Below are positions 4,714-39,359 of a stretch of DNA of 64,000 nt, piece by piece (position 1 is the first letter of the stretch; each line of letters begins with the position of its first letter). A program made the position numbers and the translations under genes. The stretch is taken from contig CALXPT010000002.1 of assembly GCA_944390355.1 (NCBI GenBank), forward strand, positions 124,001-188,000. The letters run 5' to 3'. The notes beneath the pieces were generated by a model. It had not been told where the DNA came from. It did no database searches and saw nothing but the letters and a program-made list of their open reading frames with translations. This stretch comes from an uncultured Alphaproteobacteria bacterium (GTDB lineage Bacteria > Pseudomonadota > Alphaproteobacteria > RF32 > CAG-239).

Positions 4714-5872
4714 TCAAAAACTAAAAATATATATAATAGCCGGCGAACCATCGGGAGATTTGCTTGGGTCAAGATTGATGCGTGCATTAAAGAGCAAAAC
4801 CGATAGCAAAATCAAGTTTTATGGTATCGGCGGAGAAACCATGGAAAAAGAGGGGCTACACTCCTTATTTGACGTATCTGAATTGGCGGTTATGGGCTTG
4901 GCGGAGGTTATTCCGAGTATTCCGAAAATACTAAGAAGAATAAAAGAAACCGTGGATGATATAGCAAAGAAAAAGCCGGATGTCGTTATAACCATAGACA
5001 GCTGGAGTTTTTCAAGCCGCATTCACAAGGCTTTGCGTAAGAAAAATTTGGGCATACCGCAAGTTCATTATGTTGCGCCGCAAGTCTGGGCTTGGAAGAA
5101 AAAGCGCGCCCAAACGATGTATAAATATATCGACTTGCTGTTAACCTTGTTTCCCTATGAGCCAAAATATTTTACACCCTATAAGTTAGACGCGCGCTTT
5201 GTCGGCCATCCGGTGATAGAAAGCCCCGTGATAAAGGCGGATGTAAATGCATTTCGTAAAAAGTATAAAATCCCTGAGGACAAAAAGATAATCACCGTTT
5301 TACCGGGGTCGCGCAAAAATGAGGTTGCATTGCTACTGCCGACATTTTTAGATACGGTAAAGAAGTTGAAAGAAAAACATAAAGACCTGTTCTTTGTGAT
5401 ACCGACGGTTAAGACGGTGGAAGAAAGAGTTAAAAAAGCGGTCAAGAAAAGCAAGTTAAATATCTTGGTCGTAGATACGGAAGCGGATAGATACGGTGCA
5501 TTTAGAAGTTCATCGGCGGCGATAGCGGCTTCGGGTACGGTTGCTTTGGAGCTGGCAATATGCGATATTCCGCATATCATAGCTTATAAGGTGTCGCCGT
5601 TAACAGCCATGTTGGTAAGACGCTTTATCAAAATACAGTTTGTAAACTTATCAAACATATTGCTAGGCCGCGAGATTGTGCCGGAACTGTTGCAGGAACG
5701 CTGCGTTCCTGCAAGTATTTGCTCGTATATCGAACCGTTTTTGGAAAAACAAGGTGATTGGTATGACCGCCAAATGGAAGGTTTCAAAAAAGTGCGCCAA
5801 ATTTTGGGGCAGGGCGAGCAAACCCCGAGTGAAAATGCAGCGGATATCTTGCTTGAACACATCAAATGCTAG
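4700..5872 (+). CDS. lpxB: Lipid-A-disaccharide synthase LpxB
   Basis: LpxB joins lipid X and UDP-2,3-diacylglucosamine into the lipid A disaccharide at the inner face of the membrane. The start is a GTG inside the end of lpxI. Landmarks are AGEPSGDLLGSRLM near the N-terminus, YVAPQVWAWK (about residue 127), PGSRKNEV (about 201) and AASGTVALELA (about 274). At 390 aa it has normal length. The stop overlaps the comEC start (ATGCTAG), so lpxI, lpxB and comEC appear to be one translationally coupled unit. Confidence 0.97.
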   Translation: MSTNNQKLKIYIIAGEPSGDLLGSRLMRALKSKTDSKIKFYGIGGETMEKEGLHSLFDVSELAVMGLAEVIPSIPKILRRIKETVDDIAKKKPDVVITIDSWSFSSRIHKALRKKNLGIPQVHYVAPQVWAWKKKRAQTMYKYIDLLLTLFPYEPKYFTPYKLDARFVGHPVIESPVIKADVNAFRKKYKIPEDKKIITVLPGSRKNEVALLLPTFLDTVKKLKEKHKDLFFVIPTVKTVEERVKKAVKKSKLNILVVDTEADRYGAFRSSSAAIAASGTVALELAICDIPHIIAYKVSPLTAMLVRRFIKIQFVNLSNILLGREIVPELLQERCVPASICSYIEPFLEKQGDWYDRQMEGFKKVRQILGQGEQTPSENAADILLEHIKC

Positions 5873-34530: not shown

Positions 34531-34561
34531 GAAAGGGCACCGTTAAAACGATGCCCTTTTA
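34531..34561. terminator. Bidirectional terminator between clpX and the DEAH helicase
   Basis: AAAGGGCA..CGT and ACG..TGCCCTTT form a stem with small mismatches, with T- and A-runs on both sides. The right arm overlaps the last codons of the minus-strand helicase gene. Confidence 0.75.
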
Positions 34562-37017
34562 AGATTAGAGAAAGAAATTTTCTCAGCCGAAACACCCTCA
34601 ACCGAAACAGTTGAATCAAAATTATCATTTTGAGAGGAAATATGAATTTCTTTGAGTTTGGAATTAAAGCTAATCCCGTTGGACTTATCCCCGACAATAT
34701 GAGCCTTGACGACCAAATCAGGATTTTGAATATCAATGTAGGAAGCCACAACCGGATTAATGGTTAAATTAACTTCGTTTCCGTTGATAAGGCCGAGATT
34801 CTTGAGCTTATCTTCACTAATGTTAACCGTTCCGTAAAAATTAGGCCGTTCCCGCCCAAGGATATCGAACAAATCAAAATCTTTTTTAGGGTTGGGAATA
34901 GACAAGACATTAGAAATGAGGTCGCGTTCTTGCTCTTTTTTAAGCGTATCGCTCCAAAAAGCATCCGGAATATTGTTTTTTTCGATAAAGGCTTTAAATT
35001 CCGCAATGCCTTTTTCTTTAAGAATGTTCAATGCGTTGGCGACACGGGCATTAAACCCATCGGCAACAAAATCTTTCAATTCGTAATTGCTTATATAAGA
35101 AGAATCTAATATATGAAAATCTTTGTCGCTGTCAACACTTGAAATAATCTCAGGATTTTTAAGAATAAATTTTTTAATATCGTCCGTTGATAAAGAAGTA
35201 ACATTTTCATAAATCGTAAAGGAGCGTCCGCCGTTTTTGGGCGTAATCACCCGCGGCTCGGCCAAGAAATTGTTGGAGCCGGAAACTGCGGAAGAATTAG
35301 AAATCTCATAAGAGTCTCGGTTAAAAATGTTTTGTCTGTCGATATTAAGTTTTTCAATATGACCGGCGATGAGGCATTGACGCAATTTGTCATAATCAAA
35401 CTCAAGCATATCGGTAGAAAAACGTACGCCGAGCCTGTGTCTCAAATCACGAATAAGCTCTTTAGTTTCAAAAAAGCGTTTTTTGTTAACGTTGTATTTA
35501 TAAAAGATTTTATTCGTTTCATCTTCAAGCTTTTTCCTTTGCACACCGTCGCGTTTGAGTTTTTTCAAAGCTTTGTCTGCAGCAAGAAAAGCTTTGAGTC
35601 CGTCAAACAGGTCGGAAGAATCATCCAGCCCATGCCCCTGACGGAAGTTTTGTCGCAAATTTCCCTGTTCGGCGATTGCAACCATAACAAGAGCTTGAGG
35701 CAGACAATATTCTCTGCTTTGGGCGTATTTGAGAGTAACGGCATTTTCCACGGTAACCGGCAAGTCGTTGGCAAACTTTCCGAGCTTGGTGAGGTGACCG
35801 TCTTCATCAATGAGTTTAAGCCTTTTAAGTTTTGCTTTGGCGGCCAATAATTGTCCATGGTCGATATATGCATCAAAATTCAAGTCCTCGGCTTTCAAAT
35901 CAAAGCTAGCACAGTCCATAATCAAAGAAGAAAGCGGCAAACGAGAAATTTCCGGTGTGGTTTCTTTCGCGCGGTTTTTCCATCTAGTGTAAGACGCTAA
36001 AACAAAGATACCGTCAGTAAAGCGGCAGACACGTCCTTTTTGCTGTTGCAAACGCCATTGCGGTAGGTCTTGCTCTTTAAGAGCGATAGCCCCGCTTGAG
36101 GTAACAAAAAGGTCTTTTCCTTTTCCGGAAGTAATACCTGCATCCAACCAAGGAATATTCATACCGCTTTCAATAACATTTGTACCGATAATAATTTTTC
36201 TAAAACCGTTCTTGGGTGATTTAAGAGCTTTGTCGCGTTCTTTTTTATCCATTTCACCATAGATGGAAGCCACCTCAACGTCTTTAATGTCTTTTTCTAA
36301 CAAGAGTGTTTCAATTTTATCTTTGGTTTCTTCAATGTTTGCGACACCGGATTCAAAAATGGCAATACCTTTGCGCTTTTTGTTCATGAGCAAATCGATA
36401 GAGTGTTCGGCAGCATCTTTGCTGTTGTCTTCAATGATTTCACAGTCATAAGTTCTGCCTTGTGCTTCAAAGGTATTGGGATTAAAGTCTCGCCAATATT
36501 CTTTTTGCTTTTCAAGGTTGATAGTAGCACTCATTTCAATAAGACGCAAAGCATCACCTTGCTTTTTACGATAGTGGAGCAGGGCTTTGGCAATGGACAT
36601 ATCCATAGAAGCCTCATGAACTTCATCGAGCACAATATTTTTTTCATAAAAAATCATACCGGAGCTGATGGCATAACCATAAGTGGCAAAAATAATTTTA
36701 GAATTTTTGCTAAACAGAGGCTCATCGCCGCCTTGAGTACCCACTGCATAACCCACCTCTTCGCCAAGGGTTCCGCCGGAGAGTTCGGAAACGGTTTCTG
36801 CGGCGTTAATCGCTAAAAATTTTCTTGGAACGAGCACAACAACACGCTCGTTGTCAGGAATTTTATCAGCAAGTTTGGCAGGGATTGTTAAAGTCTTACC
36901 GCTACCGGTAGGAGAAGAAATGATGGTAACATTATTATCAACCGAATCCATCACCGCATCGGAAATCTCATTAACCGGCAAATCCTTAAGTTTATCATTA
37001 TATAGCGCTTCAAACAT
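34543..37017 (-). CDS. DEAH-box (HrpA/HrpB-like) helicase
   Basis: The ATG at 37017 follows GGGAG by eight bases; an earlier in-frame TTG lies upstream of that site. The 824-aa protein has Walker A SSPTGSGKT (about residue 35), DEVH (motif II), SAT (motif III), GTNVIESGMNIPWLDAGI (motifs IV/V) and QQQKGRVCR in place of the usual Q-x2-GR-x-GR motif VI. A helical HA2-like region follows (about 330-480), then a long C-terminal part with no family I recognise. HrpA/B enzymes are RNA helicases linked to ribosome and mRNA work. The unusual motif VI and C-terminus set it apart. A long structured leader lies just upstream. Confidence 0.85.
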   Translation of the reverse strand: MFEALYNDKLKDLPVNEISDAVMDSVDNNVTIISSPTGSGKTLTIPAKLADKIPDNERVVVLVPRKFLAINAAETVSELSGGTLGEEVGYAVGTQGGDEPLFSKNSKIIFATYGYAISSGMIFYEKNIVLDEVHEASMDMSIAKALLHYRKKQGDALRLIEMSATINLEKQKEYWRDFNPNTFEAQGRTYDCEIIEDNSKDAAEHSIDLLMNKKRKGIAIFESGVANIEETKDKIETLLLEKDIKDVEVASIYGEMDKKERDKALKSPKNGFRKIIIGTNVIESGMNIPWLDAGITSGKGKDLFVTSSGAIALKEQDLPQWRLQQQKGRVCRFTDGIFVLASYTRWKNRAKETTPEISRLPLSSLIMDCASFDLKAEDLNFDAYIDHGQLLAAKAKLKRLKLIDEDGHLTKLGKFANDLPVTVENAVTLKYAQSREYCLPQALVMVAIAEQGNLRQNFRQGHGLDDSSDLFDGLKAFLAADKALKKLKRDGVQRKKLEDETNKIFYKYNVNKKRFFETKELIRDLRHRLGVRFSTDMLEFDYDKLRQCLIAGHIEKLNIDRQNIFNRDSYEISNSSAVSGSNNFLAEPRVITPKNGGRSFTIYENVTSLSTDDIKKFILKNPEIISSVDSDKDFHILDSSYISNYELKDFVADGFNARVANALNILKEKGIAEFKAFIEKNNIPDAFWSDTLKKEQERDLISNVLSIPNPKKDFDLFDILGRERPNFYGTVNISEDKLKNLGLINGNEVNLTINPVVASYIDIQNPDLVVKAHIVGDKSNGISFNSKLKEIHISSQNDNFDSTVSVEGVSAEKISFSNLKRASF

Positions 37018-37077
37018 GTAACAATCTCCCAAAACAACATAGCTATAAATATATCACAAAAGAGGTCTTAAATAAAC

Positions 37078-37102
37078 AAAAAAACCACCCTAAAAAGGTG
37101 GT
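37078..37102 (-). terminator. Terminator of the candidate structured RNA
   Basis: ACCACC and GGTGGT with a 7-base loop, followed on the minus strand by seven T. It lies 60 bases upstream of the helicase start, so it could also act as an attenuator. Confidence 0.8.
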
Positions 37103-37370
37103 CGGGAAGTTCGTAAATCATATTGAGTCAGATGATTCCGCAAATTTTTAAAACAAATGTCCCCAATTGCCAGACATTGTCTCTGTACATATATCTGCAG
37201 CTCCCCGACCATGGACATGTCACACGATCAAGGGGAATATAATACCGCCGAAAGGAATTTCATCCCCAAAGCGATTTTATCGGTGTTATATTCCATCCAC
37301 CGGACTCAATATGAAGGACTTACGACAGTCCCATACCTTTTCAGGTATGACCACGAAAAACCGTGATACA
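37078..37370 (-). ncRNA. Candidate structured RNA (about 290 nt)
   Basis: The 480-base gap between the helicase and ppiD has no credible gene. On the minus strand it has a promoter (37377-37405) and a terminator (37078-37102). Between them, 37118-37129 and 37303-37314 are a perfect 12-bp inverted pair, extended by 37111-37115/37321-37325 and 37104-37107/37329-37332. An inner helix pairs 37234-37247 with 37281-37294 (14 bp, one G-U). Near the 5' end are hairpins CATACCT..AGGTATG and CACG..CGTG. It has no tRNA-like T-loop and no RNase P, SRP or tmRNA signature that I can see. It may be an independent ncRNA or a regulatory leader of the helicase. Confidence 0.75.
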
Positions 37371-37376
37371 AGGATA

Positions 37377-37405
37377 ATAATAGCATAGGATTAAAATAAA
37401 GTAAA
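37377..37405 (-). promoter_or_regulatory. Promoter of the candidate structured RNA
   Basis: Minus strand: TTTACT, 17 bases, TATTAT. Predicted transcription start near 37370. Confidence 0.65.
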
Positions 37406-37440: not shown

Positions 37441-37476
37441 AAAAAAATCCGTTTTCGAAAAAGAGAAAACGGATTT
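37441..37476 (-). terminator. Terminator of ppiD
   Basis: AAATCCGTTTTC and GAAAACGGATTT, followed on the minus strand by seven T. It separates ppiD from the RNA promoter. Confidence 0.85.
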
Positions 37477-37496: not shown

Positions 37497-39359
37497 TTAG
37501 TCAGCCAAGCCCAATAATTTGTACTTGACGCGAACATCATAATTTTCGGCAAAACCGTCAATCAATGTGTCCGAAACCTCCGTCACAAGCTCACGACGAA
37601 CCTGATTTCGGATATCCGCTTTTTCCTGATCGGTCAGCTTCTTTTTATAGTCCACCATCTCGGAGGTTACGGCAATAATTTTGCTGCCGTTAATTTCAAT
37701 AAGTTTCGGAACATTAAGCCCTTCTTGGAAAAGCGCAACGATTTGAGAAGAGGGCAGCATTTCAAAACTTTCGGACTTTTTAATAGGCTTAGACTTATAA
37801 AGTTTCAAGCCCAAACGACCGGCCACGTCTTGAATATTTTCACCGTTGTCTAACTCATTCATGACATCATTAGTGAGTTCCAAGGCCATGGCATCACGTT
37901 CATTAGCAGTCCATAGTTCAATAATTTTAGACTTAACGTCGTTTAACGGCAAGAGATGAGAGTCATAAATTTTGTTAACTTTAACCAATGCATAACCGGT
38001 GTCAGTCTCAATAATTTGTGAGATTTCTCCGACATTATAAGAAAAAGCGGCATCAACAATATCGGAAGACAAAGTTTTGTTATTGGCATAGTGCCCGTCT
38101 TCGGTTAAACCGGAAATATTGAAAATACTGAGATTTAATTCTTTGGCAAGATTTTCAAAAGTGGCACCGGCACCGATTTTATCTTCGATTTGGTTAGAAA
38201 ATTCATAAGAAATATCATAAGCTTTTTCTTTTTTAATAGAATCAGCAGCTTTCTGGCGAGCTTTTCCGGCCTCCATTTTAGTAGCTTTGGTTTCGGAAAT
38301 AACTTTGGCGATATGCCATCCGAATTCGGAATGAATAGGTCCGACAATAGTATTTAACGGAGCGGAGAACACCTCATCGGCAATTTCTTCAAGCAGCATA
38401 TCTTTGGAAACGGAACCAAGATTGGTATCTTGTTCAGATTGCTGGGCCAAAGACTTAGCAACCTGATAAAAATCCGCCCCGTTTTTGAGTTCATTGAGAG
38501 CTTTTTGAGCCGTATCTTCATCATTAAAGGCCATTTGCAAGACCTTACGTTTGGCAGGAGTTTCGAACAAATCGGCATGCTGCTTGTAATAGGCCTCGAT
38601 TTCGGCATCGCTGGGCTGATATTGATGAGCGATTTCATCGGTAGAAATTTCGATATAAGAGATGTCTCTTTTTTCGGGAGCCATAAAACGATCGGAAAAA
38701 TCTTGATAATATTGTTCTAATTCATCATTAGAAATTTGCCGAGTTGTTTTCATCTGGGAAGGAACAATTTTAACATAAGAGAAAATTCTTTCTTGGTTTT
38801 CGATTTTTCCGAGCAAATCGGTCAGGAAAGCCGGCACATTGATGCGTCGGGCAGGATTTTGCACCAACATCTGACGTTCGATATCCAAACGCAAGGCTTT
38901 AACATAATCTTGTTCGCTCCAACCGGTAGCATTAAGCATCATGTTAAAACGGTTTCTGTCAAAGCGGCCGTTAGCATCCATAAATTCGCTCTGGGAATAA
39001 ATAATTTTGCGGATTAAATCATCACCGATGACAATATCATTTTGCTGTGCGGTAACTTGAATAATGGCATTAGCGACTTCGCGTTGAACAATGCTCAAAA
39101 GCAGAGTGTTTCGCACTTCATCGTTAATATCCAAATTATCACCGAACATTTTTCTGGCACTGTTAAGCTCTTTGTCGAAGAGATAAGAGATTTCTCCTTG
39201 AGAGAGTTCAATATTGTCAACCTTAATAACATTGCGATTCTCACCGGCGCTGTTAATATAGCCGGAAATACCGAACAACGACATGAAACTCAGAGCCGTT
39301 AAGATAAAAATAGACTTAGCCACCCAAGAATCCTGCATTTTTCTGATTTTACTCATCAT
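37497..39359 (-). CDS. ppiD: PpiD/SurA-type periplasmic peptidyl-prolyl isomerase
   Basis: The ATG at 39359 has AAGGA 11 bases upstream; longer forms add a second hydrophobic stretch without homology. The 620-aa protein has one membrane helix (about 14-34), SurA-like helical regions and a parvulin-type domain (about 240-350: KVLQMAFNDEDTAQKALNEL, FGWHIAKV). PpiD is anchored in the inner membrane and helps fold exported and outer membrane proteins near the Sec translocon. It faces tpiA-secG, a typical alphaproteobacterial arrangement that places it next to a Sec component. Confidence 0.9.
   Translation of the reverse strand: MMSKIRKMQDSWVAKSIFILTALSFMSLFGISGYINSAGENRNVIKVDNIELSQGEISYLFDKELNSARKMFGDNLDINDEVRNTLLLSIVQREVANAIIQVTAQQNDIVIGDDLIRKIIYSQSEFMDANGRFDRNRFNMMLNATGWSEQDYVKALRLDIERQMLVQNPARRINVPAFLTDLLGKIENQERIFSYVKIVPSQMKTTRQISNDELEQYYQDFSDRFMAPEKRDISYIEISTDEIAHQYQPSDAEIEAYYKQHADLFETPAKRKVLQMAFNDEDTAQKALNELKNGADFYQVAKSLAQQSEQDTNLGSVSKDMLLEEIADEVFSAPLNTIVGPIHSEFGWHIAKVISETKATKMEAGKARQKAADSIKKEKAYDISYEFSNQIEDKIGAGATFENLAKELNLSIFNISGLTEDGHYANNKTLSSDIVDAAFSYNVGEISQIIETDTGYALVKVNKIYDSHLLPLNDVKSKIIELWTANERDAMALELTNDVMNELDNGENIQDVAGRLGLKLYKSKPIKKSESFEMLPSSQIVALFQEGLNVPKLIEINGSKIIAVTSEMVDYKKKLTDQEKADIRNQVRRELVTEVSDTLIDGFAENYDVRVKYKLLGLAD

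Follow-up and report, generated by a model that had tools for sequence, protein, structure and literature searches.

A C4-like leader RNA akin to sRNA-Xcc1 precedes diverse genes in gut Alphaproteobacteria and may act as a transcription attenuator

The window (the whole 64,000-nt stretch of alphaproteobacterial DNA analyzed here) contains a gap between the stop codon of a PpiD-like gene, near 37497, and the ATG of a helicase gene at 37017. On the minus strand, this gap encodes a structured RNA (Table 1). The original prediction had placed here an RNA of about 290 nt with its own promoter and terminator, and these elements are indeed present: the promoter TTTACT-17-TATTAT, which also carries an extended TG, the intrinsic terminator (37103-37083) followed by seven T, and the helicase start codon 60 nt past the U-tract. 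The minus strand from 37372 to 37078 folds with an energy of -107.3 kcal/mol (z = -5.45), which was equaled by 0 of 200 shuffles. A second intrinsic terminator, at 37445-37476, belongs to the upstream PpiD-like gene and thus insulates the leader RNA from it.

Table 1. Elements of the leader RNA and its downstream gene in the window
Feature	Position	Strand	Basis
Promoter TTTACT-17-TATTAT, extended -10 (TG)	37377..37405	minus	sequence
Entire leader RNA, from 5' domain D1 through core C to the terminator, about 290 nt	37078..37372	minus	
P2 hairpin CAUACC/GGUAUG	37332..37349	minus	fold and alignment of relatives
P3 hairpin; loop UCGUA (37325-37321) is word b1	37316..37331	minus	95% paired, double changes in 4/5 pairs
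P4 5' strand (word a1), core of the 12-bp helix	37303..37310	minus	double changes in 8/8 pairs
P5 hairpin CGGUG/CACCG	37281..37302	minus	100% paired, 4/5 pairs covary
P6 hairpin; UCGGGG strand common with P1 (mutually exclusive)	37203..37235	minus	99.6% paired, little covariation
P1 5' strand GGUCGGGGAG, where the Xcc1-like core begins	37201..37210	minus	aligns weakly with RF02221, in register
P7/P8 arm with conserved internal loop UAUGUNCAGA...UUUAAAA	37138..37200	minus	double changes in P7 8/8, P8 6/6
P9 stem AAUCAU/AUGAUU	37116..37137	minus	99.6% paired, mostly invariant
P4 3' strand (word a'), inside the P9 loop	37122..37129	minus	38-copy alignment
b' strand UACGA, partner of the P3 loop (pseudoknot PK1)	37111..37115	minus	98.4% paired, double changes in 4/5
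P1 3' strand CUUCCCGACC; final three nt (ACC) also form the terminator base	37100..37109	minus	
Intrinsic terminator GACCACC/GGGUGGU and T7	37078..37103	minus	hairpin 37103-37083
Shine-Dalgarno GGGAG (37030-37026) and ATG of the downstream gene	37015..37030	minus	sequence
Downstream gene, DEAD/DEAH-box helicase	34543..37017	minus	Pfam DEAD 5e-13, Helicase_C 3e-11

An Rfam search of the window returned no family at threshold, and its best weak match was sRNA-Xcc1 (RF02221). As anticipated from the letters alone, neither Rfam nor ARAGORN found a tmRNA, RNase P RNA, SRP RNA, or classic riboswitch. The suggestion of a divergent 6S RNA had to be dropped, given the lack of an Rfam match and the multi-copy position as a gene leader described below. 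In the gap between terminator and helicase gene, positions 37030-37051 (minus strand AGCTATGTTGTTTT) gave a plus-strand match to CRISPR-DR22 of 19.3 bits against a cut-off of 50, which is probably due to chance.

A DNA search turned up relatives in 69 of 130 related genomes, in many cases as partial matches to the 3' end. The copy counts given here come from R1, a covariance model built on the 3' half of the RNA. R1 detected 8 copies in the window's own genome and copies in 92 of the 101 genomes of its family; genomes having any match carried from one to at least 33. Across the class, copies were found in 25 of 240 sampled genomes from about twenty families, and among 299 genomes drawn across the phylum matches were confined to the same class. 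The named relatives are mostly uncultured rumen or gut Alphaproteobacteria.

These copies are placed as gene leaders. A Shine-Dalgarno sequence and start codon within 60 nt past the terminator were found for 130 of 154 copies as compared to 121 of 1540 random positions (8%), and the median distance from terminator end to gene start was 27 nt, so that the 60 nt seen in the window is long for the family. The best promoter match clusters 120 to 160 nt upstream of the core stem (148 alpha copies), and no such cluster appears in shuffles. The downstream proteins are diverse, including glycosyltransferases, BspA-like LRR surface proteins, outer-membrane proteins, HTH regulators, nucleases, and a helicase. 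A leader specific to the helicase gene was rejected, because the RNA recurs before many unrelated genes.

Several individual loci showed further features. Contig C1 (L033, G000:C1) holds two R1 copies separated by about 650 nt, and a downstream XRE regulator recurs in near-identical form on C19 (L034, G000:C19), pointing to recent duplications. The copy L046 ends within P8 near 5060-5100 and continues as an open reading frame, which reflects either an assembly chimera or a deletion. In other alphaproteobacterial families, copies L141, L145, L147, and L414-L419 carry an extra hairpin with a conserved GCGGGGGCGUACCGC between core and gene; the genes behind L147, L415, L416, and L418 encode XRE-type regulators, as do genes behind copies in the window's genome.

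We tested the fold on an alignment (A5) of 38 divergent copies. Standard pairs filled 97.2% of pair cells and double changes occurred in 39 of 58 pairs, a result matched by 0 of 500 shuffles. The covariation score was 0.452 as compared to 0.190 ± 0.006 for shuffles, and slid controls were also far lower. Because the structure is conserved to this extent, a chance origin of the fold is excluded. Judged from the alignment, the RNA consists of two domains, D1 (P2, P3, one P4 strand, and P5) and the core C (P1, P7/P8, and P9). Covariation shows that the two are docked via two short variable pairings, PK1 and P4. PK1 reads UCGUA/UACGA in the window and is formed by different standard pairs in other copies. 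Support for PK1 and P4 was taken from fixed-column counts, which replaced a looser helix test with too high a null (259/459).

Of the two long helices that had been proposed, the perfect 12-bp helix (37303-37314 with 37118-37129) stands in its inner 8 bp, where the compensatory changes expected in related genomes were found at all eight pairs over the 38 relatives; the four outer pairs overlap the P9 stem. The inner 14-bp helix fared less well: on the transcribed strand, its supposed G-U pair is a C·A mismatch, and the relatives favor the local hairpin P5 instead. What persists of it is a weakly supported loop pairing, in which the P5 loop GGAAUAUAA is pairable with 37242-37234 (88% paired, with hardly any covariation).

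At the 3' end, P1 and P6 compete for one strand, and each is near 100% paired among the relatives. The terminator in turn takes in three nucleotides of the P1 3' strand, which are 96.9% paired and show double changes. In the window copy, the terminator hairpin has an energy of -9.5 kcal/mol including this overlap and -2.5 kcal/mol excluding it; the family medians are -9.8 and -3.2 kcal/mol. A full terminator stem formed in 123 of 126 copies with P6 enforced as compared to 53 of 126 with P1 enforced, and the P6 (terminated) state was favored by a median of 6 kcal/mol in energies calculated without pseudoknots. The leader thus has the arrangement of an attenuator, with a terminator right before the gene that is mutually exclusive with another conserved helix. 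Among a new RNA class, a divergent 6S RNA, and a leader-attenuator, the three proposals made at the outset, the last has the strongest support, which comes from the position of about 150 copies and from the overlap of P1 with the terminator in them.

We propose that the alpha-type leader is a default-off attenuator, opened by docking of D1 on C and formation of P1. A single transcript would carry D1, with b1 in the P3 loop and a1 in the P4 strand, followed by the core with P1, P7/P8, a' in the P9 loop, and b', and then the terminator and the gene. Docking of D1 on C would favor folding of P1, which would remove the base of the terminator and let RNA polymerase continue into the gene; the rival hairpin P6 would allow the complete terminator to form and transcription to end. 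The putative competition between P1 and the terminator is read from the three shared bases and the pseudoknot-free energies. Alternatively, the terminators might be constitutive, with the genes expressed by leak. The mutually exclusive helices before an intrinsic terminator and a gene resemble terminator/antiterminator attenuators and riboswitches. In contrast to these, the alpha leader has no known ligand, leader peptide, or protein, and its domain contact is made by freely varying words.

These guide words differ between copies of the same genome, being alike in only 5 of 70 copy pairs, a pattern consistent with cis pairing. The a and b words of the alpha family have no general copy at the adjacent ribosome site. 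A slight enrichment was seen there, which we traced by eye to one group of surface-protein genes with AATCATATG at the start codon. A free trans target in the window's own genome was likewise rejected: the 12-nt a word has one further exact match (L413, G000:C23:552-563), which is about the chance level. It lies upstream of a gene reading as ribosomal protein S10, away from the ribosome site, and is probably a chance match.

The core of the RNA points to sRNA-Xcc1. The window sequence scored 22.7 bits on RF02221 (E = 0.18), below the gathering cut-off of 53, and aligned in register with its 3' half. A distant alpha copy, L153, reached 56.2 bits on the same model exactly at its R1 match. The window family also shows the architecture of RF02221, namely, the P1 closing stem, an inner arm, a second hairpin, b', and a downstream hairpin. 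A C4 covariance model gave no match in the window. Because both the C4 and sRNA-Xcc1 models stay below threshold there, the case for kinship is made by architecture and one bridging copy. The proposal of a new RNA class thus holds in so far as the RNA is absent from Rfam at threshold, but its core is akin to sRNA-Xcc1 and its design is that of C4.

Xcc1-type copies in other proteobacteria and on viral contigs carry D1 as well, with the P3 loop and PK1, P4, and P5; the 87-nt Rfam model therefore represents the 3' part alone. Both types share P1, the P7/P8 arm, P9 with a variable loop, the b' segment, and a hairpin after P1, next to the 5' domain with its P3-loop pseudoknot, P4, and P5, and both occur in multiple copies with a gene downstream. 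They differ in the conserved loop letters, which are UAUGUNCAGA / UUUAAAG in the alpha type and AAUACAAUACC / GGGGAAUA in sRNA-Xcc1. The alpha type further differs in having the terminator and P6, in that ribosome-site words are not general, and in downstream genes other than phage regulators. In Xanthomonas, sRNA-Xcc1 has been described by Northern blot and RACE as an 88-nt species, with its start at P1 (PMC2996969). Promoter matches of Xcc1-type copies cluster upstream of D1, with no peak between D1 and C, suggesting that in such copies the 88-nt RNA is probably cut from a longer transcript. The Xcc1-type motif matched at least 120 viral contigs, and two non-alpha genomes (G604 with 9 matches and G418 with 6) are rich in such RNAs. 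A search of 50,697 phage records gave no match for the alpha type, and its pattern was absent from the viral contigs searched; on these searches, we rejected phages as the source of this type itself.

In phage-type copies, the guide words recur beside the Shine-Dalgarno sequence of the adjoining gene. Among 90 non-redundant copies, 69% had a bipartite match of at least 12 nt in their own ribosome-site region as compared to 4.3% for the regions of others, and 0 of 500 permutations reached the observed mean. In 67 of the 90 copies, as compared to 12 of 879 in the null, D1 and the ribosome site have in common a word of 6 nt or longer that is complementary to core sequence, with 55 distinct words in all. 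For instance, the ribosome site behind L367 contains TTCGAAAA and CAAACAG, followed by GGAG, and both words are complementary to the L367 core. The Pfam-matched downstream proteins belong to the antirepressor families Bro-N, P22_AR, Rha, KilA-N, AntA, and ORF6N. This arrangement suggests that the phage-type core, able to bind either D1 or the second b/a word copy at the ribosome-binding site, would repress the gene when bound at that site.

In phage P1, the a' and b' segments of C4 pair at the ribosome site of ant, and C4 matures at its P1 stem (PMC5320573, PMC12197685). Phage-type sRNA-Xcc1 appears to be built on this design. Xcc1-type copies share with C4 (RF01695; clan CL00128 with c4-2) the three stems, a loop a' and a segment b' facing a target word pair, the presence of these target words at a ribosome site, a probable mature 5' end at the P1 stem, and an antirepressor downstream. 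The window family likewise has three stems, a variable a' loop, and pairing of a' and b' to an upstream word pair (P4, PK1). In contrast, the ribosome-site target is lost in the alpha family, where the output is a terminator, and the window's gene is a DEAH helicase instead of the antirepressor found at this position in Xcc1-type copies. The C4 model matched none of 56 relatives, a search in which the positive controls went unmatched as well, and Rfam places sRNA-Xcc1 outside the C4 clan. At L248 (2890-2958, minus strand), a c4-2-like RNA scoring 34.8 bits against a cut-off of 41 has an Xcc1-type RNA about 1.3 kb away, and C4, isrK, and sRNA-Xcc1 are annotated as neighbors in Xylella (PMC12189769). 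The C4-derived Group 1 sRNAs of Acinetobacter baumannii (21 per genome; PMC5320573) resemble the alpha copies in their chromosomal multiplication, variable a' loops, and longer precursor; however, they are described as sRNAs with unknown targets, whereas each alpha copy has an intrinsic terminator and serves as the leader of the gene next to it. In work up to 2025, sRNA-Xcc1 features as an sRNA linked to virulence or vesicles whose targets are unknown (PMC12189769, PMC12444791, PMC8780938), and the papers naming it that we consulted, a set without its 2011 paper, state no C4-like mechanism.

Taken together, we consider it fairly probable that the window's RNA derives from the design of phage immunity RNAs seen in C4 and sRNA-Xcc1 and, now resident in the host, would serve as a chromosomal transcription-attenuation leader. 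In rumen-family copies, including that of the window, the second word copy would generally have been lost and the decision moved to transcription.

We find it unlikely that the RNA instead acts autonomously in trans, as sRNA-Xcc1 is annotated, with the terminated RNA of about 290 nt or a processed core binding other mRNAs through a' and b' and the downstream gene being incidental or expressed by leak. A promoter and terminator of its own, freely varying, guide-like words, and the known 88-nt species (PMC2996969) would suit such a role. However, 84% of copies lie 10 to 60 nt upstream of a same-strand start codon, which leaves little space for a separate gene promoter. The single other genomic match of the a word, upstream of the S10 gene, and the words not being generally repeated at the adjacent ribosome site also speak against it.

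A metabolite or ion riboswitch, with D1 and C forming an aptamer that governs the terminator and a ligand bound at the P7/P8 internal loop and around P9, appears less probable still. The complex pseudoknotted fold has strictly conserved unpaired positions in the alignment of relatives, and its output platforms are exchangeable (a terminator in the alpha family, a ribosome-site copy in phages), as would be expected of a riboswitch; yet the downstream genes share no common pathway. Moreover, the interdomain contact is built from freely varying words, and in phages the RNA is directed at antirepressors; this agrees better with immunity control by RNA-RNA pairing than with ligand sensing. Least probable is a dispersed repeat, in which RNA and promoter move together like a MITE or cassette and conservation reflects recent copying: near-identical copies do stand ahead of different genes (L044/L048; L033/L034) and sRNA-Xcc1 occurs in integron cassettes (PMC12444791), but double changes in PK1, P4, and P7 over the 38 divergent copies indicate long selection on structure, guide words are unlike within genomes, and placement is directional, nearly always ahead of a start codon.

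Returning to the phage-derived leader, a broader reading, which we judge as likely to be right as wrong, is that one lineage of gut Alphaproteobacteria adopted an RNA immunity module of temperate phages and multiplied it across the genome as self-paired transcription switches with private code words before surface, glycan, and regulatory genes. The phage form would be sRNA-Xcc1, a C4-like RNA repressing antirepressors and previously described only in its 3' part. On this reading, sRNA-Xcc1 would gain a testable mechanism and its known structure is extended about twofold. A phage-type design for lysogeny control would be found as ordinary leaders of host genes, with its output shifted from translation to transcription, and the private words may represent a natural collection of programmable RNA switches.
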